The position numbers and the translations under genes were made by a program. Source: Bacteroidota bacterium (GTDB lineage: Bacteria > Bacteroidota > Bacteroidia > Chitinophagales > Saprospiraceae). Taken from it: a stretch of 64,000 nucleotides of DNA. The DNA lies in the NCBI GenBank assembly GCA_017857395.1, contig JAFMDF010000012.1, positions 1-64,000 on the forward strand, in the 5' to 3' direction. How positions within the stretch are numbered: the first letter of the stretch is position 1; the number at the start of each line of letters is the position of its first letter. The notes under the pieces are model-generated. The model made no database searches, had not been told where the DNA came from, and worked only from the letters and a program-made list of their open reading frames with translations. This document shows, in pieces, positions 3,788 through 61,440 of this stretch.

Positions 3788-6700
3788 ATGAAAAATAAAT
3801 TAATAATTTTTACCCTTTTCTGGCTACTAGGTAGCTTTAGCACATTTGCTCAAAACCAAATTAGCGGACTCATTACAGATAGTACAGGAGAACCCTTAAT
3901 TGGTGCGTCTATTCTGATTAAAGGCACAAATTCTGGAACAATTACTGATTATGATGGGAAATATGAATTGACGCTTGAATCAGATCAAAAAATCTTACAA
4001 GTATCCTATACGGGCTATGAAGAACAAGAAATTACGGTAGGAAATAGAACAGTTGTTAATATTACATTGGCTGAAAGTATTTCTCTAATTGATGAGGTAG
4101 TTGTAGTAGGCTATGGTACCCAAAAACGTAGTAAAATTAGTGGCGCAGTTTCGACGGTTACTTCAGACGAAATCACTGAAGCGCCTGTATTAAGAGCAGA
4201 ACAAGCTTTGCAAGGAAGAATTGCAGGGGTGCAAGTCTCTCAAAATTCAGGCTCACCAGGAAGTGCATTAACCGTAAGAGTTAGAGGTGTTGGTACTATT
4301 AATAATAGTGACCCTCTATATATTGTAGATGGTATTCCTGTTGAAGGTATTGATTTTTTAAATCCAAATGATATTGAATCTATCAATGTCCTAAAAGATG
4401 CAGCATCTTCTGCCATCTATGGAGCTAGAGGTGCAAATGGAGTTGTTTTAATCACCACCAAAGGAGGAAAAACAAACCAAGCAGGCAAGGTAAGTTATGA
4501 TGCTTATTATGGCGTACAAAGCCCTTGGAAAAAAATGAATTTATTAAACGCTAGAGAATATGCGATTCTTTCTAATGAAGCAAATATTAATTCTGGAAAT
4601 ATCCCTTTACAAGAATTCGCCAATCCTGACCAATTAGGAGAAGGAACTGATTGGCAATCCGCCATTTTTCAAGACGCACCTATATATAGTCATCAATTAA
4701 GTTTTTCAGGAGGAAGTGAGCGTTCTAGCTACACGGCCTCTGGAAACTATTTTGTTCAAGATGGAATTATTGGTGGTCGAAAAGCTGGCTTTGAACGATA
4801 TACCGTTCGCCTCAACTCAAGAAATCAATTAAAAGACTGGTTAACTATTGGTAATACCTTAGGTTTTACCTACTTGACTAGAAACGCTGTACCTGAAAAT
4901 AATGAATTTGCAACGCCTTTGGTTCGTGCTTTAAATATGGATCCAGTGACACCAGTTCGTAAACCTGATGGCACTTTTGCTTATTCTTATTATTCAGATA
5001 CAGATATTACTAACCCTATAAATGCCATTCAACAAATTAATGATAAGTGGACCACTCACAGAATTGTAGGTTCTGTTTATGGAGAAGCGGAGATAACCCA
5101 AAAAATCAAATTTAGGTCTGTTTACAGTGTAGATGCAACTTTTGCTACTAGAGATATATTCCGACCTAGTTTTGATTTAAGTATTAATCCGCTTTTAAGT
5201 GATGCACCAGCAGGAGAGAAAAACTTCATTAATGGAGTCTCTAAAGAAAATAACACTTGGCGAAATTGGCAATGGGAAAATGTAGTTACTTATAACGATG
5301 TTTATGCAGATAGACATAATGTCGGGCTTACTTTAGGAACGACTGTTTTAAACAATCGTTTTGACTATGCTGGAGGAAGCAATACTAATCTACCAAGCAA
5401 CGACCCTAAGGATGCCTACATTTCTAATACCATTGACCCCATTGCATCCCAAGGTGCTTATGCAGGTGCAACAGAGTCTGCTTTATTATCCTTCTTCGGT
5501 AAGGTGAATTATGACCTCGATGACAAATATCTATTTTCTGCTACTTTTAGAGCAGATGGATCTTCTCGATTTGGTCGAAATAATAGATACGGTTATTTTC
5601 CATCTTTCTCTTTAGGTTGGGTAATTAATCGAGAAGATTTTTGGTCAATGGATAACGTTAGTTTATTTAAATTAAGAGCAAGTTGGGGACAAAATGGAAA
5701 TGATAAAATCGGAGATTATAGTTTTTCTACTATTGTAAATGCTGGACAAAATTATACTTTCGGAGATGGAGAAATTATTACTAACGGAAATGTACCATTA
5801 GTGTCTGCCAATCCTGATTTAAAATGGGAAACCAGTACACAAACGGATATCGGATTAGATGTAGAAATGTATGATGGTAAAATCAATTTTGTAGCAGATT
5901 ACTACATCAAGACTACTTCGGATATGTTATACGCAGCCCCGATTCCTTTTGTGGCAGGTACACAAGCACCTGTAAGGAACATTGGAGAAGTAGAAAATAA
6001 GGGCTTAGAATTGTCTCTAAGTTACAGGAATAGAGATAATGCGTTTAAGTATAGTGTTAGTGCAAATGTTGCTTTTGTTTCTACAGATGTACTTAGTTTA
6101 GGAGAAGGCGGAGACCCTATTACAACAGGTAATGTATTTTCAGCAGGTGCAGCGGCAAGAACAGAAGTTGGCCACCCAATTGCTTCTTTTTATGGATATG
6201 TAACAGATGGCTTATTCCAAAACCGACAAGAAATAGAAAGACATGCTTTTCAGAATGAAAATACGGCTCCAGGAGATATTCGATTTAAAGATTTGAATGA
6301 AGATGGGATTATTAATAACTTCGATAGAGATTATATAGGCAATCCAACCCCAGATTTTACTTATGGAATTAACGCCGATTTTGAATACAAAGGTTTTGAT
6401 GTTAGCTTATTTCTTCAAGGAGTTCAAGGCAACGATATTTTTAATGGTATTGTTCGCTATGATTTTTCTTATACCAACCGACCACAATCTGTCTTAAATC
6501 GCTGGACAGGGGAGGGCACTTCTAACTTTGAACCAAGAGTGACTGTTAACGATCCCAATTTCAATGCTAGAGTTTCTGACCGATTTGTCGAAGATGGGTC
6601 GTATATAAGATTAAAGAATGTACAGATTGGTTATAGCTTGCCAAAATCGTTAATTAGTAAATTAAAAATTGATAAATTTCGATTATATCTAAGTGCTCAG

Positions 6701-6838
6701 AATTTATTAACTATTACCGATTATTCTGGTTTAGACCCTGAAATCGGTGCGACACAAGGGGCTTTAGATTTAGGAATTGACCGTGGTTTTTATCCTCAAT
6801 CTCGCACCTTTTTAGGTGGGGTGAATATTACGTTTTAA
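3788..6838 (+). CDS. SusC/RagA-family TonB-dependent outer-membrane transporter
   Basis: A 1016-residue transporter that should import oligosaccharides across the outer membrane using TonB energy. A signal peptide ends in TFAQ. A carboxypeptidase-D-like regulatory domain follows (about 24-103, ISGLITDSTGEPLIGASI). The TonB-box and plug region comes next (IDEVVVVGYGTQKRSKISG, then RAEQALQGRIAGVQV), and then a long 22-strand type barrel ending with the usual aromatic residue (GGVNITF). Length is typical of the SusC family. It is followed 127 bases later by its SusD partner. A GH16 enzyme in the same cluster makes beta-1,3-glucan or a mixed-linkage glucan the likely cargo; this is inferred from context. 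Confidence 0.95.
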   Translation: MKNKLIIFTLFWLLGSFSTFAQNQISGLITDSTGEPLIGASILIKGTNSGTITDYDGKYELTLESDQKILQVSYTGYEEQEITVGNRTVVNITLAESISLIDEVVVVGYGTQKRSKISGAVSTVTSDEITEAPVLRAEQALQGRIAGVQVSQNSGSPGSALTVRVRGVGTINNSDPLYIVDGIPVEGIDFLNPNDIESINVLKDAASSAIYGARGANGVVLITTKGGKTNQAGKVSYDAYYGVQSPWKKMNLLNAREYAILSNEANINSGNIPLQEFANPDQLGEGTDWQSAIFQDAPIYSHQLSFSGGSERSSYTASGNYFVQDGIIGGRKAGFERYTVRLNSRNQLKDWLTIGNTLGFTYLTRNAVPENNEFATPLVRALNMDPVTPVRKPDGTFAYSYYSDTDITNPINAIQQINDKWTTHRIVGSVYGEAEITQKIKFRSVYSVDATFATRDIFRPSFDLSINPLLSDAPAGEKNFINGVSKENNTWRNWQWENVVTYNDVYADRHNVGLTLGTTVLNNRFDYAGGSNTNLPSNDPKDAYISNTIDPIASQGAYAGATESALLSFFGKVNYDLDDKYLFSATFRADGSSRFGRNNRYGYFPSFSLGWVINREDFWSMDNVSLFKLRASWGQNGNDKIGDYSFSTIVNAGQNYTFGDGEIITNGNVPLVSANPDLKWETSTQTDIGLDVEMYDGKINFVADYYIKTTSDMLYAAPIPFVAGTQAPVRNIGEVENKGLELSLSYRNRDNAFKYSVSANVAFVSTDVLSLGEGGDPITTGNVFSAGAAARTEVGHPIASFYGYVTDGLFQNRQEIERHAFQNENTAPGDIRFKDLNEDGIINNFDRDYIGNPTPDFTYGINADFEYKGFDVSLFLQGVQGNDIFNGIVRYDFSYTNRPQSVLNRWTGEGTSNFEPRVTVNDPNFNARVSDRFVEDGSYIRLKNVQIGYSLPKSLISKLKIDKFRLYLSAQNLLTITDYSGLDPEIGATQGALDLGIDRGFYPQSRTFLGGVNITF

Positions 6839-6844
6839 GAAAAA

Positions 6845-6951
6845 GTAGCTTGGGCTTCTAGCCCGAGTAGGAGACATATTATTAAAAGTGGCTTAGACAT
6901 TTTGCCTGAGAAGTTATTACCTAAACTTCTCGGGCTAGAAGCCCAAGCTAC
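6845..6951. repeat. three REP-like hairpins between susC and susD
   Basis: Three copies of a 26-base element: 6845-6870 (plus), 6888-6913 (plus, degenerate) and 6926-6951 (minus). Each has GTAGCTTRG (GTGG in the second), a 9-base core and CYGAG-AG/TAG. The outer two have identical 23-base sequences facing each other and would fold into a large cruciform or RNA stem. The core GCT-TCT-AGC has a 3-base loop. In an RNA spanning susC and susD this stem could protect or attenuate the transcript. The same family recurs at 57382 and 60260-60324. Confidence 0.8.
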
Positions 6952-6965
6952 CTAAAAAATAAGAA

Positions 6966-8447
6966 ATGAAAAATTTAAAATATTTGAGTTTCGTACTAGT
7001 ATTCCTCTTTGCCTGTCAAAAGGATTTGTTAGAAAAGAGTCCGATTATTGGCGTAACTGAAGATAATTTCTATAAAACGGAAGCAGATGCTATCTCCGCC
7101 GTAAATGGAGCTTATGCTGCTTTACAGTTTGAGTTAACCCCAGCAGGGCATTTTCGTTGGTTTTGGGGAGACATCATGTCTGATGATACTGAAAAAGGAG
7201 GTTCTGGGGCAAATGATGCACCTAATCTAGCGGCATTAGAAAATTTTCAAGGACCAACAAATACTGATTTTTTAGAAGCAGAATGGGCAGCAAATTATGA
7301 AGGAATTTATCGAGCAAATGTAGTTTTAGAAAGAGTGCCACCGATTGAAATGGACGAAACAAAGAAAGCACAAATTTTAGGCGAAGCGAGAACGATTCGA
7401 GCTTGGTTTAATTTCTTACAGGTAACTTACTTTGGAGATGTTCCTTTAGTAGATCAAGTATTAGCGCCTAGTGAGTATACGATTGGTAAAAACCCAGCAG
7501 CAGAAGTTTGGGCATTCATTGAACAGGATTTAATCCAAGCAATTGGGGATTTACCAAAAAGAAGTGAGTATCCTATCGCAGATTTAGGTAGAATTACCAA
7601 AGGAGCAGCACAAGGCTTATTGGTGAAAACTTATTTATTTCAATCTAAATGGGCAGAAGCAAAAGCAATTGCAGAAGATTTAATCAATTCAGGGGAATAT
7701 AATTTGGTTGGAAACTATAATCAGATATTTACGGAAAGTGGAGAAAACAATGCAGAATCTGTTTTTGAAATCCAATACATGAACGCTTCTGGTGGAAACT
7801 GGGGCAGAAATAACGCCAATGAAGGTAGTTTCTCCAATGTTTTTCAAAGAGCAAGAGGGCAATTTGAGGGTTATGGTTTTAATTTACCTACTCAAAATTT
7901 TGTGGATGAATTTTTTAAAGAAGGCGTCGAAGACCCTAGACTAAAGGCAACCGTTTTTAGAGAAGGTGACCTAATGGGAGATAGAGGCTTTTTTACAAAA
8001 GAATCCACTGGATTTCCTCACGATTATTACCCCAAAAAATATTTTAATAACAAAAGTGAGGAAGCACCTTTTGGTGACCCTAATCCAAATGGCGGTACGA
8101 ATGACCGAGTTATTCGCTACGCCGACATTCTATTAATGCACGCCGAAGCTGCTTTTCATACGGGAGATGAAACAGGAGCAAAGACTTCTTTAAATCAAGT
8201 AAGAAGAAGAGTTAATATGCGAGAAATAACGGATAGTGGTAATGCTTTATTAGAAGCCATTTATCATGAAAGAAGAGTAGAATTAGGTCTAGAAGGACAT
8301 CGTTTTTTCGATTTAGTTAGAACAGGTAGAGCTGCTGCTGCCTTAGGATCATTGGGATATAGAGAGGAGGTACATAAAGTATTACCTATTCCTGATTCCC
8401 AAATACAAGCATCTAATGGTACTTTAACTCAGAACTCGGGGTATTAA
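6966..8447 (+). CDS. SusD/RagB-family glycan-binding lipoprotein
   Basis: A 493-residue lipoprotein that caps the SusC transporter on the cell surface and binds glycan. The signal peptide ends in LFACQ with Cys17 as the lipid anchor. The TPR-like SusD fold is recognisable from SPIIGVTEDNFYKTEADAISAVNGAY near the start, the RTIRAWFNFLQ helix, GAAQGLLVKTYL, the RYADILLMHAEAA helix and the terminal HERRVELGLEGHRFFDLVR block. Length and order are standard. It pairs with the SusC gene 127 bases upstream; the gap is filled by REP-like hairpins. Substrate is inferred from the neighbouring GH16 gene. Confidence 0.95.
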   Translation: MKNLKYLSFVLVFLFACQKDLLEKSPIIGVTEDNFYKTEADAISAVNGAYAALQFELTPAGHFRWFWGDIMSDDTEKGGSGANDAPNLAALENFQGPTNTDFLEAEWAANYEGIYRANVVLERVPPIEMDETKKAQILGEARTIRAWFNFLQVTYFGDVPLVDQVLAPSEYTIGKNPAAEVWAFIEQDLIQAIGDLPKRSEYPIADLGRITKGAAQGLLVKTYLFQSKWAEAKAIAEDLINSGEYNLVGNYNQIFTESGENNAESVFEIQYMNASGGNWGRNNANEGSFSNVFQRARGQFEGYGFNLPTQNFVDEFFKEGVEDPRLKATVFREGDLMGDRGFFTKESTGFPHDYYPKKYFNNKSEEAPFGDPNPNGGTNDRVIRYADILLMHAEAAFHTGDETGAKTSLNQVRRRVNMREITDSGNALLEAIYHERRVELGLEGHRFFDLVRTGRAAAALGSLGYREEVHKVLPIPDSQIQASNGTLTQNSGY

Positions 8448-31703: not shown

Positions 31704-31763
31704 ATTTTTTAGGTATGGGTAAATTCATTCGATGGGTACAAATAAATAAAAAGCTTAAAAATG

Positions 31764-31937
31764 ACCTCAGAGAGGTCAAAAATCTTTAGAAGATGTTAGA
31801 AAAGGCAACTCTTACGACCTCAGAGAGGTCGCATGTAATAAATTTCTTCGCTCATTTTTTAACATTCGACCTCTCTGAGGTCGTGAATACTCATTTTTGT
31901 AGCTGATTTTCTAAAAACCTGCGACCTCTCTGAGGTC
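31764..31937. repeat. array of four identical 15-base hairpins
   Basis: GACCTC, a 3-base loop and GAGGTC occurs four times: 31764-31778 and 31816-31830 (loop AGA), and 31868-31882 and 31923-31937 (loop TCT, i.e. the reverse orientation). Spacing is 37, 37 and 40 bases. The arrangement is two forward then two reversed copies, so the whole array is also a large inverted repeat. It fills the 329-base gap between two minus-strand genes. Confidence 0.9.
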
Positions 31938-55006: not shown

Positions 55007-57316
55007 ATGAGTCACACTCCACCATTATTCAAAGATTATTCTCCTGCTTTAACTGCCATTCTTCCAATGCTTTATGCCGCTTGGTCGGATATGGTTTTAA
55101 CACCTACAGAAGTTAGTTTTTTATCCAAAAAAATAGATACCTTACAGTTTTTAAAAGAAGAAGAACAATATTTGGTAAAATCATGGATGAATCCAAGAAC
55201 GCCACCTACTCGGCAGTTATATCTTCATTGGGAAAATATCCTTAGAAGAGGTGCGACAAAACTACCCAAATCTTCTAGAAAATCTTTAGTCGATTTAGGC
55301 TTAGCCATGGCTAAAAAAAGTGCTCGAATCAATCAGGTAGTAGATTGGAATGATAAAGAAGCGAGAAAAGAATTAGAAATCTTAGAAGAAAAGTTAAATC
55401 TAGTTACTTGGGATACTTATCAACGAATTTTTCCAACAGCAGGGCCAGAATCTTTGGAAAGTCACGCTTTTGACATTCCTAAAATGACGGCTTTTTTGGA
55501 TGGAAATACGCATGAATTACGAAATAAAGTTAAACGATTTTTTTTAGACCCAGTTTTTCATTATCGACCATTAAGAACAAAAGAAAGATATAGAAAACAA
55601 GTCACCGAATGGTGTCAGATGATGGCGGACCAAGGATATGGAAGTATTGCTTTCCCTAAAGAATATGGTGGTAAAGATAGCATGAAGGCTTACATTGCTA
55701 TTTTTGAAACTGCTTCCTATTTTGATTTAAGTTTGGTCATTAAATTTGGGGTACATTTTGGACTTTTTGGTGGAAGTGTCTATTGGTTAGGTACTAAAAA
55801 ACACCACGATAAATACATCAAGGATATTGGAACGATGGCATTACCAGGTTGTTTTGCGATGACAGAAACAGGACATGGTTCGAATGTACGAGGACTAGAA
55901 GTAACCGCCACTTATGACCCTACTTCCGATGAAATCATTGTTCATTCTCCTAATGTACAATCGGGTAAAGAATATATTGGCAATGCTTTGGATAGTAAAA
56001 TGGCTTCTGTATTTGCGCAATTAATTGTGGATGGAGAAAATCATGGCGTCCATGCTGTTTTAGTTCGACTAAGAGATGACAATCACAAATTATTGCCAGG
56101 TATTAAAGTTAAAGACAATGGCTATAAAGTAGGCTTAAATGGAGTTGATAATGGGCGAATTTGGTTTGACCAAGTTCGAGTGCCAAGAGAGAATTTATTG
56201 GACAGATATGGCGCTATTAATGATAACGGGGAATATGAAAGTCCTATCGCCAATCCATCTAGGCGATTCTTTACCATGCTTGGTACATTAGTTGGAGGTC
56301 GGGTCTCTGTTCCTAAAGCAGGTTTAAGTGCCGCTAAATCAGGCTTAACTATTGCGATTAAACATGCCTTAAAAAGGAGGCAATTTGGTCAAAACACTAC
56401 TACGCCAGAAACTTTATTATTAGATTATCCAAGTCATCAACGCCGCCTAATGCCTTTATTAGCCAAAAGTTATGCTTTGACTTTTGCCTTAGAATATGTG
56501 GCGGAGCGGTATATAAATCGAACAGAAGACGATATTCGAGAAATAGAAACATTGGCTGCTGGCATGAAATCTTATGCTACTTGGTTTACGACGGAAACTT
56601 TACAGGAATGTAGAGAAGCTTGTGGAGGAAAGGGTTATTTGGCAGAAAATCGTTTTGCAGATTTAAAAGCAGATTCTGATATTTTTACCACTTTTGAAGG
56701 TGATAATACCGTTTTGATGCAATTGGTTGCAAAAGGTGTTTTAACAACTTTTAAAGAATCTTTTCATAATGAAGGAATGATTGGCGTACTACGTTTTGCA
56801 GGACAACGATTTGGTACGTCTATCTCTGAAAAAAACCCATTAGCTATTCGGAATACGGATAAAGGTCATCTACTAGACACTGAATTTCAATTAGCTGCTT
56901 TTCGATATAGAGAAAGTCATTTAACTTATTCTGTAGGACAGCGATTACGTGGATTAATTAAAGGAGGCATGCCTTCCTATGATGCTTTCTTAAGGTGTCA
57001 ATCTCATTTACTGGCTCTAGCAAATGCTTTTGTGGAAGTAAAGGTTTTAGAAAAATTCACGGAAGCTATTGACCAGCAGGAAGATAAAAAATTAAAAAAG
57101 GCACTTCAAAAATTATGCAATTTATATGCTCTACATACGATTGAATCTCATAAGGGTTGGTTCTTGGAAGTGGATTATATGACGGGGGCTAAAACGAAAG
57201 CTATTCGCCGATTAGTGGATGATTTATGTGGAGAAGTTAGGATTGATGCGCATTGTTTAGTGACCGCTTTCGGGATTCCTGAGGATTTATTGGCTGCGCC
57301 TATTGCGGTTAAATAA
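55007..57316 (+). CDS. acyl-CoA oxidase/dehydrogenase-family flavoenzyme
   Basis: A 769-residue flavoprotein acting on acyl-CoA at the alpha-beta bond (first step of beta-oxidation). An N-terminal helical extension covers about 1-145. The acyl-CoA dehydrogenase core starts near QVTEWCQMMADQGYGSIAFP. FAD and substrate motifs are LPGCFAMTETGHGSNVRGLE, GVDNGRIWFDQVRVPRENLL and RRQFGQN. EACGGKGYL and TTFEGDNTVLMQL (the oxidase-type active-site block) follow. The last 170 residues (with IESHKGWFLEVDYMTG) match the C-terminal domain of acyl-CoA oxidases. Whether it passes electrons to oxygen or to ETF cannot be read. It stands alone. Confidence 0.9.
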   Translation: MSHTPPLFKDYSPALTAILPMLYAAWSDMVLTPTEVSFLSKKIDTLQFLKEEEQYLVKSWMNPRTPPTRQLYLHWENILRRGATKLPKSSRKSLVDLGLAMAKKSARINQVVDWNDKEARKELEILEEKLNLVTWDTYQRIFPTAGPESLESHAFDIPKMTAFLDGNTHELRNKVKRFFLDPVFHYRPLRTKERYRKQVTEWCQMMADQGYGSIAFPKEYGGKDSMKAYIAIFETASYFDLSLVIKFGVHFGLFGGSVYWLGTKKHHDKYIKDIGTMALPGCFAMTETGHGSNVRGLEVTATYDPTSDEIIVHSPNVQSGKEYIGNALDSKMASVFAQLIVDGENHGVHAVLVRLRDDNHKLLPGIKVKDNGYKVGLNGVDNGRIWFDQVRVPRENLLDRYGAINDNGEYESPIANPSRRFFTMLGTLVGGRVSVPKAGLSAAKSGLTIAIKHALKRRQFGQNTTTPETLLLDYPSHQRRLMPLLAKSYALTFALEYVAERYINRTEDDIREIETLAAGMKSYATWFTTETLQECREACGGKGYLAENRFADLKADSDIFTTFEGDNTVLMQLVAKGVLTTFKESFHNEGMIGVLRFAGQRFGTSISEKNPLAIRNTDKGHLLDTEFQLAAFRYRESHLTYSVGQRLRGLIKGGMPSYDAFLRCQSHLLALANAFVEVKVLEKFTEAIDQQEDKKLKKALQKLCNLYALHTIESHKGWFLEVDYMTGAKTKAIRRLVDDLCGEVRIDAHCLVTAFGIPEDLLAAPIAVK

Positions 57317-57322
57317 ATTCGA

Positions 57323-57349
57323 GTAGTACCAAGCTCCGCTTGGTATTTT
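57323..57349 (+). terminator. GTAG-headed triloop hairpin after the acyl-CoA enzyme
   Basis: TACCAAGC (57327-57334), TCC, GCTTGGTA (57338-57345) is a perfect 8-bp stem with a 3-base loop, preceded directly by GTAG and followed by TTTTA. It works as a terminator by position, yet has the head-plus-hairpin layout of the REP-like elements. Confidence 0.75.
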
Positions 57350-57370
57350 AACACAAATGAAAAATAACAC

Positions 57371-57414
57371 GGAGGTTTTTCGTAGCTTAGGCATGCTTAC
57401 CTGAGTATTCCTCC
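57371..57414 (+). repeat. REP-like element nested in an outer stem
   Basis: GTAGCTTAG, core GCATGCTTAC, CTGAGTAT (57382-57408) is another copy of the REP-like family, here flanked by GGAGG (57371) and CCTCC (57410-57414), which pair outside it. It sits between convergent genes. Confidence 0.75.
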
Positions 57415-57496
57415 AAGAATGTTCTTATCTCGGATAATAGATAATAGATTCTACGGATGCAAAACAACTGGGATTTTTTAACTAGAATAGGCAATT

Positions 57497-58270
57497 TTAT
57501 AGATTCTCAATCTCTAATTCAAGTCCATCATACGCTAACTGCACATTTTTAGGAAGAATCGCATTCACTTTTTCAGTTAACCCCATGCGATGGCTAATAT
57601 GGATTAAATAGGCTTGTTCTGGTTGAAGTAATTCTATTAAGGCTAGGGCTTCTTCCAGATTAAAATGAGCATGGTGTTTGGAATGATGTAAAGCGTCTAA
57701 AACTAAAATTTTAGTTCCTTCTATTTTTGCCAATTCCTCTTCCTCAATTTTATTCACATCCGTTAAATAAGTAAAATCACCAAATCTAAAACCGAAGACT
57801 GGCAACTTACCGTGCCAAGCCCTAATTGGTTGAATGGATAAATTATCAATAACGATGTTTTCACCATCTTTAATTTCTTCTAAAGTCAACCGAGGTGCAC
57901 CAGGATATGGATTTTCTGCAAAAATATAAGCAAAACGTTCTTTTAATTCTTTTTGCACTCGTTTTTCTGCATAAACAGGCATAGATTTTCGATGTTTAAA
58001 ATTTAGCGGGCGCACATCATCCATGCCAATGATATGGTCATTATGCTCGTGCGTCATTAAAATCGCTGCTACATCGAAGACCTTAGCTCGTAATAATTGT
58101 TGTCGAAAGTCGGGTCCTACATCAATGACAATAGTCTTTCCCTTCCACTCAATCATAGCAGAAGTTCGCAGACGTTGGTCTCTAGTATCGGAAGATTGGC
58201 ACACTTCGCATTCACAGCCTATTACTGGAACGCCTTGGGAAGTTCCTGTACCAAGGAGGGTTATTTTCAT
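57497..58270 (-). CDS. MBL-fold phosphodiesterase, PhnP/RNase Z-like
   Basis: A 257-residue metallo-beta-lactamase-fold hydrolase. The N-terminus LLGTGTSQGVPVIGCECEVC with a further DTRDQRLRTSAMIEW block is characteristic of the PhnP-like group (phosphoribosyl 1,2-cyclic phosphate or similar cyclic phosphodiesters). Metal motifs are LMTHEHNDHIIGMDD (HxHxDH), RAWHGKLPVFGF, DALHHSKHHAHFN and LIHISHRMG. The gene start is ATG at 58270, nine bases after the preceding small gene, so they are co-transcribed. No phn genes are nearby, so the true substrate is open. Confidence 0.88.
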   Translation of the reverse strand: MKITLLGTGTSQGVPVIGCECEVCQSSDTRDQRLRTSAMIEWKGKTIVIDVGPDFRQQLLRAKVFDVAAILMTHEHNDHIIGMDDVRPLNFKHRKSMPVYAEKRVQKELKERFAYIFAENPYPGAPRLTLEEIKDGENIVIDNLSIQPIRAWHGKLPVFGFRFGDFTYLTDVNKIEEEELAKIEGTKILVLDALHHSKHHAHFNLEEALALIELLQPEQAYLIHISHRMGLTEKVNAILPKNVQLAYDGLELEIENL

Positions 58271-58278
58271 AAATTTAT

Positions 58279-58587
58279 TTATTCCTTATTTTTTTCTTCA
58301 ACGACTTCTTCTTCCTCTTTCCCATGTTTAGCCACTTGTTTATACGTTTTTACGCCTTTTTCGCTCAACCCTTCTTGGTCAACTTCGATATTAGATAAAA
58401 TTTCCAATAGGACTCCTACTCTACCTTCTGTATCAAAAAATTTATTAATTACCGCTACATTTTGATTTTCGACCATGCAATAACCAGAGTTAAAACTCCC
58501 TTTTGCGTAACGGATAGTATAGCCTATCTCTTCAAAAAGTTCTTCTATTTTTTTTAATAAATGCTTGGTAAACTTCAGTTTTGCCAT
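58279..58587 (-). CDS. small conserved protein upstream of the MBL gene
   Basis: A 102-residue protein of unknown function. It begins with a helix (KLKFTKHLLKKIEELFEEI) and then a strand-rich centre (YTIRYAKGSFNSGYCMVENQ, VAVINKFFDTEGRVGVLLEI). It ends with a charged Glu/Lys tail (KHGKEEEEVVEEKNKE). I take it to be a conserved Bacteroidota hypothetical, tightly coupled to the MBL phosphodiesterase, and perhaps related to its function. No motif identifies an activity. Confidence 0.75.
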   Translation of the reverse strand: MAKLKFTKHLLKKIEELFEEIGYTIRYAKGSFNSGYCMVENQNVAVINKFFDTEGRVGVLLEILSNIEVDQEGLSEKGVKTYKQVAKHGKEEEEVVEEKNKE

Positions 58588-58731
58588 TATTTTGTTTTAA
58601 TTTTTTTCTTTCAATTGTAGACTAACAAGAAACCATTTAGATTTACACCTCAAATTTGTCTGAGTTAATTCAAATTTAGCTAGATTTTTGCTACTCATTA
58701 GTAAAACCACCACAAAGATAAGTCGCTCAAT

Positions 58732-60153
58732 ATGAAAAGACAATTATTAGAAACGGAACAAAAGGCTTTAGAGATTAATTTGAACGATAAAATTTATGGT
58801 TCTTTTGCAGAGATTGGTGCTGGACAAGAGGTAGCAAGGCATTTTTTCCAAGTAGGTGCAGCCGCAGGAACAATTGCCAAAACTATTTCTGCTTATGACA
58901 AAGTGATGTCTGACAAAATATATGGGATAGAGAATACTGGTCGATATGTTTGTGAAGCAAGGGTTTATAAAATGCTAGACCACGAATATGATTTGATGGA
59001 ATCTAGATTAGATAATGAGCGACCAGAAACTTGCTTTTTTTCTTTCGCAGATTCTGTCGCCGCTATTAATTTTAGTCGCACAATTAAAGGTAATGGATGG
59101 TTGGGCATTCGCTTTCAATTACGACCTGACGCTCCACCGAATGATTTGGTGATTCATGTAAAAATGTTGGATAAGAATAATCAATTACAGCAGCAAGCTA
59201 TTGGTGTTTTAGGCGTCAATATGCTCTATGCCTGTTATAATTTTCATGATAAACCAGAAGTTTTACTAGAATCCTTAATAGATAGTTTAAGAGGAAGAAT
59301 TAAGATTGATATGGTTCGTTTGACAGGTCCAGATTTTGAAGAGGTCGATAATCGGCATTTAAGTTTAATGCTAGTCAAACATAAATTAACAGAAGTGGCA
59401 ATGTTCGATGAAAAAGGGCAAAATGTGCATCCTTCTGAATTTTTATACCGAAAAAATTTAATGGTGGTTCGAGGTAGTTTCCGTCCTGCTACTTTGGTGA
59501 ACATGGATATGATTAAAACGGCTTATAAACAGTTTAGAGAAGATGCTGGAACTGAATCGAATAAATGTTTTCTACTAACAGAAATTACGATGGATAATTT
59601 ATTATCTGATGGGAATTTAGATGCAAAAGACTTCTTAGACCGAGCCGATTTATTATGTGAACTAGGACAAACCGTCGTTATTTCAGATTGCTCTAAACAG
59701 CAAAAATTAATTGATTATTTTAAGGATTATAAATGCCCAAAATTAGGCTTGGTAACAGGAGTTCGGGAATTATTAGAAATGATTAATAATACTTTTTACC
59801 AAAATCAAGATGGGGCTTTATTGTCTGCATTTGGCGAATTATTTACAAGAAATGTAAAATTTTATGTATATCCTGCTTTACAAGAAGGTAGTGGAGAAGT
59901 AATTAATTGTCAGAACTTACCTGTGCCAGAAGGAATTAAATTTGTTTATCAACACCTTTTAGGCAGTAGTCAAATCCATGATATACAAGGATATAAGGAA
60001 GAAGTCCTACATATTTTCTCTAAGCAAGTTTTACAGATGATTAAAGATGATGAGAAAGGTTGGGAACAATTGGTGCCTTCTAAAGTGGCTAATTTGATTA
60101 AGGAGAAGTGTTTATTTGGTTTTCCTTATGAACAGATGGAGTTTGAGTATTAG
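58732..60153 (+). CDS. conserved Bacteroidota protein of unknown function, 473 aa
   Basis: A 473-residue soluble protein with no signal peptide. The start NLNDKIYGSFAEIGAGQEVA then RHFFQVGAAAGTIAKTISAY is distinctive and, as far as I recall, strongly conserved in Bacteroidota, where database names for it vary and are not trustworthy. GQEVARHFFQ and SAYDKVMSDKIYG suggest a nucleotide- or phosphate-binding fold, but I see no established catalytic motif. Later blocks include SFRPATLVNMDMIKTAYKQF and GQTVVISDCSKQQKLIDYF. A strong inverted-repeat terminator follows immediately. It is divergent from the small gene at 58587. A cytoplasmic metabolic enzyme is plausible. Confidence 0.75.
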   Translation: MKRQLLETEQKALEINLNDKIYGSFAEIGAGQEVARHFFQVGAAAGTIAKTISAYDKVMSDKIYGIENTGRYVCEARVYKMLDHEYDLMESRLDNERPETCFFSFADSVAAINFSRTIKGNGWLGIRFQLRPDAPPNDLVIHVKMLDKNNQLQQQAIGVLGVNMLYACYNFHDKPEVLLESLIDSLRGRIKIDMVRLTGPDFEEVDNRHLSLMLVKHKLTEVAMFDEKGQNVHPSEFLYRKNLMVVRGSFRPATLVNMDMIKTAYKQFREDAGTESNKCFLLTEITMDNLLSDGNLDAKDFLDRADLLCELGQTVVISDCSKQQKLIDYFKDYKCPKLGLVTGVRELLEMINNTFYQNQDGALLSAFGELFTRNVKFYVYPALQEGSGEVINCQNLPVPEGIKFVYQHLLGSSQIHDIQGYKEEVLHIFSKQVLQMIKDDEKGWEQLVPSKVANLIKEKCLFGFPYEQMEFEY

Positions 60154-60156
60154 CAT

Positions 60157-60221
60157 CAAATGTCAAATTTAAAGTTCAAACCATCTTCAGCAGACATTTT
60201 GAACTTTAAATTTGACATTTG
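60157..60221 (+). terminator. 24-bp perfect inverted repeat after the 473-aa gene
   Basis: The arm at 60157-60180 (CAAATGTCAAATTTAAAG and TTCAAA) is exactly complementary to 60198-60221 with a 17-base loop. It begins three bases after the stop codon. It is AT-rich and has no distinct T-tract; it probably acts on the 3' end of the transcript. Confidence 0.75.
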
Positions 60222-60259
60222 TACTTAAAATATCGAATCTTTGACAATTTTTGCAGAAT

Positions 60260-60324
60260 GTGGCTTAGACCTCTGGTTTGAGTAGCATTAATGCAGACCT
60301 ACTCAGACCAGAGGTCTAAGCTAC
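60260..60324. repeat. facing pair of REP-like elements
   Basis: 60260-60285 (plus) and 60299-60324 (minus) are two copies of the GTAGCTTRG family with core ACC-TCT-GGT. They differ by two bases (GTGG for GTAG in the first; TTGAG for CTGAG). They face each other across 13 bases, the same arrangement as at 6845-6951. The rest of the 396-base gap up to 60549 contains nothing I can name. Confidence 0.85.
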
Positions 60325-60549
60325 GTTTGTTTTAAAACTACCGTATGAACCTATTTATACTGCATCAGGGTGAAAAATAGACTTTCTGTTGAAGATTGTT
60401 TTATTGTTGAATTGTTACATTGCTTAATAATTGCAGCTTAAAATAGGGATAAAACCCTACTCAACAATATAACCATTTGGGTTATAACTTGAGCTGCTCA
60501 ACCTTTTGAAAATGTTCAAATCTTAACCTGTTAAAGTATAAACGTCAGT

Positions 60550-61440
60550 CTAAACATCACAAGTCATTACTCCATGCTTTAAAGCCGCCATTTTATCATC
60601 CCATGTAGGAATAAATTCTTGTCCTAAAAATCCTTTATAACCAGTATCTACGATGGCTTTAATGATTGCAGGATAATATAATTCTTGGGTTTCATCAATT
60701 TCATTTCGTCCAGGTACTCCCCCAGTGTGGTAATGACAAATATAATCTTGGTATTTTTTAATAGTCGCAATTACGTCTCCTTCCATAATTTGCATGTGGT
60801 AAATATCATATAATAATTTAAAGTTAGGAGAGCTTATTTTTTCTACCAATTTTACACCCCAAGGTGTTTTATCGCACTGATAATCCTTATGATTGACTTT
60901 ACTATTGAGTAATTCCATTGCAATCATCACATTATGCTTCTCCGCATGTTTGACGATTTTATCCAACCCAACTGCGCAGTTTTCAAGCCCAACTTCATCA
61001 TCCAAACCATTTCGGTTACCAGAAAAACAGATGATATTTTTGATGCCCATGTCAGACGCCTTTTCAATCAATTTAAAATAAGGTTGTAAAACCTTTTCAT
61101 GGTTTTTAGGATTATTTATCCCATCCGTCAAGCTAATAAAATCAGCCGTTCCCATACCAACAGTTAAACCCTTTTTTATAATCACATCCCACTCATCAGG
61201 TTTAGTGATTTCAATCGATTTTATCCCCATATCCTTAGAAGCATCAATTAATTCCTCTAAGGGCATTTTGGAATAGCACCAGCGGCAAACAGAATGATTA
61301 ACATTACCTTTTAAAGTTGAAGTTTCGATAAGTTTACTTTTTTCAGCAGTATCAGAAGGGGAAGCGCAGGACTGATTCATTAAGGTAGTCATCGCTCCTG
61401 CTCCCACTGCTAAGTTACGAATTGCGGTTCTTCGTTTCAT
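60550..61440 (-). CDS. Tat-exported TIM-barrel sugar isomerase/epimerase
   Basis: A 296-residue protein of the xylose-isomerase-like TIM-barrel family (hydroxypyruvate isomerase type). A twin-arginine signal is at the start (MKRRTAIRNLAVGAGAM). The barrel then gives GIKSIEITKPDEWDVIIK, IICFSGNRNGLDDEVG, MIAMELLNSKVNHKDYQCDK, FKLLYDIYHMQIMEGDVI, YHTGGVPGRNEIDE and FLGQEFIPTWD, which supply the usual Glu, Asp, His and Glu metal site. It is exported, as many such proteins in Bacteroidota are. It follows the gluconate-dehydrogenase subunit 3-like gene by 73 bases and shares its N-terminal signal, so they probably act on one substrate. Exact activity is not readable. Confidence 0.88.
   Translation of the reverse strand: MKRRTAIRNLAVGAGAMTTLMNQSCASPSDTAEKSKLIETSTLKGNVNHSVCRWCYSKMPLEELIDASKDMGIKSIEITKPDEWDVIIKKGLTVGMGTADFISLTDGINNPKNHEKVLQPYFKLIEKASDMGIKNIICFSGNRNGLDDEVGLENCAVGLDKIVKHAEKHNVMIAMELLNSKVNHKDYQCDKTPWGVKLVEKISSPNFKLLYDIYHMQIMEGDVIATIKKYQDYICHYHTGGVPGRNEIDETQELYYPAIIKAIVDTGYKGFLGQEFIPTWDDKMAALKHGVMTCDV

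Follow-up and report, generated by a model that had tools for sequence, protein, structure and literature searches.

The window analysed here, a stretch of 64,000 nucleotides, comes from a Saprospiraceae genome (G000) assembled as 10.15 Mb in 631 contigs. It holds six copies of a short hairpin repeat, at the positions and on the strands given by the original prediction. We read the repeat, with good confidence, as a GTAG-tagged REP family whose unit is a REPIN, that is, two facing REP copies. The features are as follows.

3788–6838, +: gene for a SusC-like TonB-dependent receptor (Pfam), 5′ of the three-copy cluster
6845–6870, +: REP copy with GTAG tag, 8–9 bp stem and 3-nt loop; starts 6 nt 3′ of the susC-like gene
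6888–6913, +: decayed REP copy that forms the left arm of a facing pair; GTGG tag, weak fold
6926–6951, −: REP copy that forms the right arm of this pair, with a stem of 8 bp; 14 nt 5′ of the susD-like gene
6966–8447, +: susD-like gene (Pfam), 3′ of the three-copy cluster
57323–57345, +: GTAGTRCCAAGCTCYGCTTGGYA, a copy that belongs to a second REP family with a GTAG tag
57382–57408, +: lone, decayed REP copy with a 10-nt core and a TAT end
60260–60324, both strands: REPIN of two facing REP copies, the matched 23-mers separated by 19 nt, forming a single long hairpin
60260–60285, +: left arm of this REPIN; GTGG tag, stem with one G·T pair more than usual
60299–60324, −: right arm of this REPIN, of the commonest subtype, GTAGCTTAGACCTCTGGTCTGAGTAG

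The motif put forward originally, with GTGG in place of GTAG in two copies, describes most of the set: five copies match GTRGCTTRG-N9-YYGAG exactly, but the sixth, 57382–57408, has the longer core and lacks the (T/A)AG end. Shuffled windows searched with up to one mismatch give a mean of 0.10 matches and a maximum of 2, against the five exact matches here. The changing cores are indeed self-complementary; they are not separate 3-bp stems, as had been thought, but the upper part of one covarying stem of 7–8 bp. In the copies at 6845, 6926(−) and 60299(−), flanks and core together form a single stem of 8–9 bp with a 3-nt loop, and their DNA folds reach −6.3, −6.0 and −4.1 kcal/mol (z −3.2, −3.1 and −1.7). 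The copies at 6888, 57382 and 60260 look decayed, since their folds are no stronger than those of shuffles (z −0.3, 0.1 and 0.4). Taken as a whole, the pair at 60260–60324 is a single 65-nt hairpin (−23.2, z −8.2), and the facing pair 6888–6951 folds with z −3.8. A scan of the window against Rfam found no family at the gathering score, and thus no known structured RNA.

Across the whole assembly, the GTAGCTTRG-type pattern has 127 exact matches (62 forward, 65 reverse), and the reversed pattern has none, so that the search proposed originally did return many copies. The copies were studied in 60 stretches around most of the first 100 listed matches together with the window and locus L030, in all 522,631 bases. 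This set includes 100 exact copies, out of 127 in all, and 10 that differ by one mismatch; the reversed pattern gives none of either sort. L242:2679, which is among the ten, was dropped as chance-like, leaving 109 copies; the exact but poorly pairing match C317:4255 is outside this count.

The unit is 26 nt long with the consensus GTAGCTTRGRCNTCYRGYCYGAGTAG. It consists of the GTAG tag, each base of which is 98–100% conserved, and a stem of 7–8 bp closed by a loop of 3–5 nt. The set thus shows two traits of the GTAG REP super-family: GTAG stands unpaired below a short-looped stem within the range of 6–13 bp, and the copies are numerous, dispersed and mostly intergenic. Stem pairs 5–23 and 6–22 are nearly invariant, and 7–21 is a T·G pair in 107 copies. 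Pair 8–20 is A-T in 74 copies, G-C in 33 and G-T in 2, pair 10–18 is mostly A-T (69) or G-C (35), and pair 12–16, the outermost of the five variable pairs, is formed in 88. Scored at these five pairs, the 38 distinct sequences give 190 cells, of which 175 are paired; 2000 shuffles give a mean of 147.6 and a maximum of 160, and sliding the partner by one base gives 81–83. The stem is followed by TAG (T 87%, A 98%, G 86%), which with the last stem base makes a second GTAG. As many as 34 of the 109 copies share one identical 23-mer. A conserved CT adjoining the repeats, the candidate cleavage site, was not seen in the composition table of the G000 copies.

The copies fall into 68 units. Of these, 37 are plain facing pairs, 2 consist of a facing pair plus one further copy, and 29 are singles. 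The inverted pairing noted before, described then as BIME-like, therefore extends to 39 of 68 units and is REPIN-like; tail-to-tail pairs within 250 nt were not found among these units. The spacers between matched 23-mers measure 14–49 nt in 37 of the 39 pairs, most commonly 17–19. In 25 of the 39, the two arms are identical over positions 8–20 (5000 shuffles: mean 7.9, maximum 16). There are also pairs with like spacers and unlike arms, in which both arms have changed alike (L216/L229; L236/L245; L198 and L201/L205); therefore, the arms evolve together.

The spacers themselves recur. Among the 73 dimers of G000 and G942, 26 pairs of spacers reach 88% identity or more, where the null gives 0.5 on average and never more than 2; 14 of these 26 are between species. 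One identical 19-nt spacer occurs at two G000 loci and one G942 locus, and the flanks of like-spacer pairs within G000 reach no more than 0.53–0.67 identity. The excess stands out only at 84–94% identity; at 75%, 23 of 38 and 22 of 35 dimers find a partner against a null of about 20, which is no excess. Since spacers are shared across loci and species while the sites turn over, the pair together with its spacer is the unit that has been copied to new places. Singles show no clear excess of divergence over paired copies (mean identity 0.821 and 0.841; 302 of 2000 shuffles reach this difference), and 4 of the 29 have a recognisable decayed partner.

With simple ORF calling (at least 80 aa, and a unit counted as outside unless more than half of it lies within an ORF), 62 of the 68 units lie outside ORFs in DNA that is 84.6% coding. 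The expected intergenic bias is thus borne out; for the six units within ORFs, some ORF starts are possibly mis-set. Of the 62, 32 lie between codirectional genes, 23 between convergent and 4 between divergent ones, and 3 lie at locus ends. All neighbouring gene pairs in the same DNA number 216, 58 and 55, respectively, and convergent gaps provide 10,016 and divergent gaps 16,887 of 66,055 intergenic bases. Near the outer edges of the units, 68 stop codons were found; 41 of them start 3–12 nt before the GTAG, a count that has no random-position control, and two are the TAG of the tag itself. Placement behind genes has been described likewise for GTAG REPs elsewhere (PMC3733652).

The sites are seldom shared between species. 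A sample of 40 stretches from G942 contains 45 units, 37 of them facing pairs, and by blastn of masked flanks just one of the 45 shares a site with any of the 68 G000 units; distant homology could escape such a search, and the G000 side consists of the stretches studied. This points to a spread later than the species split, or else to much loss. The repeat at 60260 is absent behind the orthologous gene in all seven sister genomes seen, although the downstream neighbour differs in these relatives and one contig has only about 170 nt left. The repeats at 57323–57408 are absent in G840, which has kept both neighbouring genes. No precise empty site was found at either place: in G840 the 57323–57408 gap is syntenic but itself unalignable, and at 60260 the relatives' downstream neighbour is not the same.

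All nine sampled genomes of the genus contain the pattern, with 127, 78, 29, 18, 15, 15, 14, 11 and 2 matches. In the order and phylum samples a match occurs in 44 of 298 and 47 of 395 genomes, respectively, and outside the genus no genome in them exceeds 3 matches except G173 (7). The genome with two exact copies, G907, has a count no higher than chance elsewhere; two of its places resemble the whole 60260 REPIN at 80–89% identity. The pattern is absent from four other genomes of the family that have L165-like RAYTs (see below). A scan of named genomes for one subtype gave 45 stretches. The 14 genomes that contain them are four of Saprospiraceae, seven of Opitutales, Opitutia or other Verrucomicrobia, and single ones of Hydrogenedentota, Victivallaceae and a Trichodesmium bin. 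Some of the 14 are genomes of the genus that appear twice under different handles, with identical contigs and positions (G683 = G942; G678 = G951; G679 and G880).

The cyanobacterial Trichodesmium bin (G685; L092) has four pattern matches, some of subtypes shared with the window's genome, through either transfer or contamination of the bin. The Hydrogenedentota genome, G674 (L069 and others), has 47 copies, many of them GTAGCTTAGCCTTCCAGGCTGAG, in pairs of both orientations about 160–190 bp apart. This genome also has 19 RAYT-model matches, none of which we assign as a cognate enzyme.

REP elements of this kind call for a RAYT, a Y1-HUH transposase, flanked by the same element. Twelve Y1 loci were collected in the window's genome, 7 by Pfam and 5 by the RAYT model NF047646 (E up to 1; one is a 56-aa fragment). 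None has the GTAG repeat in the flanks examined, which extend up to 1.5 kb a side, several being cut by contig ends; the cognate enzyme is thus not found among them. By eye, seven of the twelve are accompanied by palindromes of their own with other sequences (L031, L032, L033, L054, L056, L062 and L064), and no palindrome was recognised at the other five. The second richest genome, G942, with 78 copies, has two matches to the RAYT model, both with other palindromes.

The linkage that had been predicted was therefore not found in the flanks examined in the window's genome but is present in one sister species. On contig C271 of G951, the RAYT gene L133/L165 ends in the TAG of the GTAG of a facing REPIN, a pair of GTAGCTTAGACATTCCTGTCTGAG. 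This is the only linked locus found in the genus, its other side is cut by a contig end, and by a rough estimate chance would produce one RAYT–REPIN neighbourhood in nine genomes about one time in five. The L165 sequence contains the HUH motif NHVH and the segment YVLNNAV, a Y1 fold motif within which we place the presumed catalytic tyrosine. It scores 25.8 bits against Pfam Y1_Tnp PF01797 (cut-off 23) and 56.5 bits (2.8e-15) against NF047646, under the cut-off of 80; in a profile comparison, the solved structure closest to it is TnpA-REP 4er8 (E 7e-8). L165 is a predicted RAYT of the Y1-HUH type, an assignment made from motifs and profiles.

At a threshold of 1e-15, 101 of 398 sampled genomes of the family have a homologue of L133/L165; G000, G722, G787, G928 and G942 have none. 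The nearest on the tree, L166 and L167, belong to other genera and are 63% identical to L165; the groupings have supports of 99/94 and 97/84. Both are flanked by hairpins, CTCAGACATTCCTGTCTGAG and CCAGACATTCYTGTCTGG, that share the core AGACATTCYTGTCT but carry different tags, CGTCCC and GTAA. The next homologue, L168 (61%), has a different core. The shared core beside L165, L166 and L167 is the best evidence that core and enzyme may travel together. The predicted hairpin substrate of an L165-type RAYT would be single-stranded GTAGCTTAG.

Other candidates and Y1 loci were considered as well. Between the two repeat copies at L097, about 760 bp apart, there is no Y1 frame; the frame found there is, as we judge by eye, alpha/beta hydrolase-like. 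A search of the 45 scan loci for Y1 genes, using HMMs built here, gave one match, L091, about 6 kb from the repeat. Further Y1 genes are flanked by their own, differing palindromes (L047, L045 and L042 in G242; L149 and L155 in G679). Upstream of the RAYT at L144 (G679) lies GTAGCTTAGACCTAAGCTAC, which looks like a facing pair minus its middle, a double-foot form.

We propose that each arm, when in single-stranded DNA, would form a GTAG-tagged hairpin that is read by a Y1-HUH RAYT, and that the REPIN with its spacer would be copied to new sites; it is met chiefly at places where an insertion costs little, immediately after stop codons. The REPIN would be a miniature non-autonomous element, and its likely cognate enzyme the L133/L165-type RAYT of the sister species. 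Recognition, cleavage and movement are what we infer; what was observed is the copy number, the covarying structure, the pairing, the placement, the occurrence throughout the genus, the turnover of sites, the shared spacers and the one RAYT linkage. The failure to find the enzyme in the window's genome means that the copies there would be leftovers, be moved in trans, or have a gene that is unassembled. The original REP-element reading, built on a GTAG tag before a hairpin, is supported in that copies are many, lie mostly outside genes and include one set beside a RAYT in a related genome.

A quite different reading is that the hairpins are host signals at the 3′ ends of genes, terminators or mRNA stabilisers, under selection and not mobile. 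It would account for units directly after stop codons, for their scarcity between divergent genes, for the strong folding of facing pairs and for the cluster between the susC-like and susD-like genes. However, positions 24–37 of the composition table are TAG followed by mixed bases with no T-run, and a terminator scan of 57300–61000 flags none of the REPs there, so that we reject intrinsic terminators. Host signals would also be expected neither to leave just one of 45 G942 units at a G000 site, nor to be missing at 60260 behind the orthologue in all seven sisters (one with its short contig remnant), nor to have spacers in common at unrelated loci. We regard this explanation as improbable.

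If the elements are mobile, the question is which enzyme would move them, and whether any still does. The REPINs might be moved by another Y1 enzyme of G000, such as the L143/L054 RAYT or a subclass 1.2-like enzyme, the link to L133 being a chance insertion. The L143 RAYT of G000 has kept an open frame of 220 aa, and the two richest genomes are among those without an L133 match at 1e-15. Against this stand the different palindromes at seven of the twelve G000 loci and the recurrence of the L133 core beside homologues in two other genera, and we consider such an enzyme unlikely. It is somewhat easier to imagine, if still doubtful, that the copies are inert relics of an ancestral spread now subject to decay alone: no linked RAYT was found in the window's genome, half of the window copies fold poorly, and some singles retain a decayed partner. 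But in G942 the 23-mer shared by 34 of the G000 copies serves as left arm in 26 of 35 dimers, and the rarity of sites shared by the two species points to later spread or much loss. A REPIN population with an L133/L165-type RAYT as its likely enzyme is probably the better description.

The tags of the relatives deserve attention, since natural variation among them makes tag reading and the choice of cut site by RAYTs testable by comparison. GTAG, GTAA, GTAC and GTAT all occur beside L165 relatives. In a survey of 37 RAYTs (30 among the L133/L165 matches listed and 7 others), GTAN stands on one or both sides of 144 among 194 hairpins, and 32 of 37 loci have at least one such hairpin; one of the other five is hairpin-free. 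As background, GTAN stands at 64 of 693 hairpin sides in the G000 stretches, the family's own 41 sides excluded. A count of tags by hairpin within G000 was set aside, as the stretches had been picked for the element and are not independent evidence. Single tag assignments are uncertain because GTAN was accepted within six bases of the stem.

The majority base at position four is a purine in 23 RAYTs and a pyrimidine in 7, leaving out 7 loci without a majority; majorities are sometimes thin (L171, 4 to 3). On the transposase tree, whose deep forks are weak, this character changes 3 times against a shuffled mean of 6.4, with 0–1 of 500 shuffles as low. With the four bases kept apart, the clustering is weaker (16 changes against 20.2 shuffled; 3 of 200 as low). 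In the available text of a 2021 study, one TnpA-REP enzyme shifted its cleavage to GA and GT when GTAG was replaced by GTAC, two other enzymes were intolerant of such changes, and the tag was proposed, for GTAG, to be a guide that picks the cleavage dinucleotide (PMC8266576). It is tempting to propose that the REP tag is a natural code in its fourth base in the Bacteroidota RAYT family related to L165, a proposal to which we give even chances. If the tag is a guide, these enzymes should, by extrapolation, cut at different dinucleotides (CT, TT, GT and AT), and comparison of the enzymes would show the residues that read base 4.

Three other repeats in the window may be recorded here. The second GTAG family, GTAGTRCCAAGC, has 8 copies in the G000 DNA studied (1 in reversed DNA), including two facing pairs: besides the window copy at 57323–57345, it is found at L212 7100/7152, L250 5326/5382, L234, L242 and L245, and it flanks RAYT L175 of the sister species G840. 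At 31763–31937, four GACCTCWSWGAGGTC palindromes lie 52–55 nt apart without a gene; in L032 (1164–2034) they stand on either side of a Y1 gene (YVMNQKEHH) that resembles subclass 1.2, and they recur at L252 6344–6413. The window array looks like a gene-less, MITE-like version of the L032 element. Subclass 1.2 is given no REPs in the table of a 2018 survey (PMC6006769). Beside the 60260 REPIN, the segment 60353–60541 (also L263) is a repeat with one part 96% identical in G951 (L278), another part that equals the end of the DNA adjoining a Y1 gene of subclass 2.1-like type (L037), and parts that match several G951 contig ends.

REPIN/RAYT systems are long-lived associations of a transposase-like enzyme with a population of sequences. 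To our knowledge, these pairs have been studied mainly in Proteobacteria. The present case adds a Bacteroidota population that extends through a genus at strongly unequal copy numbers, from 2 to 127 per genome, with arms that change together and with genomes both with and without a linked enzyme found. The repeat signature should also help annotators, as such hairpins can be mistaken for terminators. A literature search for REPs in Saprospira gave no report, many subscription papers being outside its scope, and among the matches listed for RAYT in Bacteroidota none treats REPs, as judged by title and opening of the abstract or, for the one that names RayT genes in Chryseobacterium, by the available text.

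In the accessible part of the work on Pseudomonas fluorescens SBW25 (PMC3116915), REPINs are likewise inverted REP pairs with short spacers that fold jointly, are extragenic and are copied as whole pairs. The sequence and phylum are different, and here singles are not clearly more diverged and the two richest genomes show no linked RAYT. The super-family GTAG-1 to GTAG-24, as far as its description is available (PMC3733652), shares the GTAG tag, stems mostly of 6–9 bp, very short loops, head-to-head dimers, the TAG of the tag as a stop codon and siting behind uni- and convergently transcribed genes. That survey places GTAG repeats in Proteobacteria, Cyanobacteria, Chloroflexi and the PVC group and assigns CGTC repeats to Bacteroidetes; our comparison with its families (e.g., that of Opitutus terrae) is by description and not by consensus sequence. 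For RAYT subclass 2.4, described as abundant in Cyanobacteria and Bacteroidetes, the available text of the 2018 survey states that most of the genes have canonical GT[AG]G REPs in their vicinity (PMC6006769). L165 and its relatives resemble this subclass and PDB 4er8 in the HUH and Y motifs, the flanking GTAG hairpins and the range in Bacteroidetes, a placement made via the motif table and not a tree, but the relatives are tagged GTAG, GTAA, GTAC and GTAT. A Bacteroidota REP family, as originally suggested, is therefore present genus-wide, although GTAG REPs in this phylum are not themselves new (PMC6006769, in the part available): within the literature searched, the repeat is new as a family, of the known REPIN/RAYT kind.
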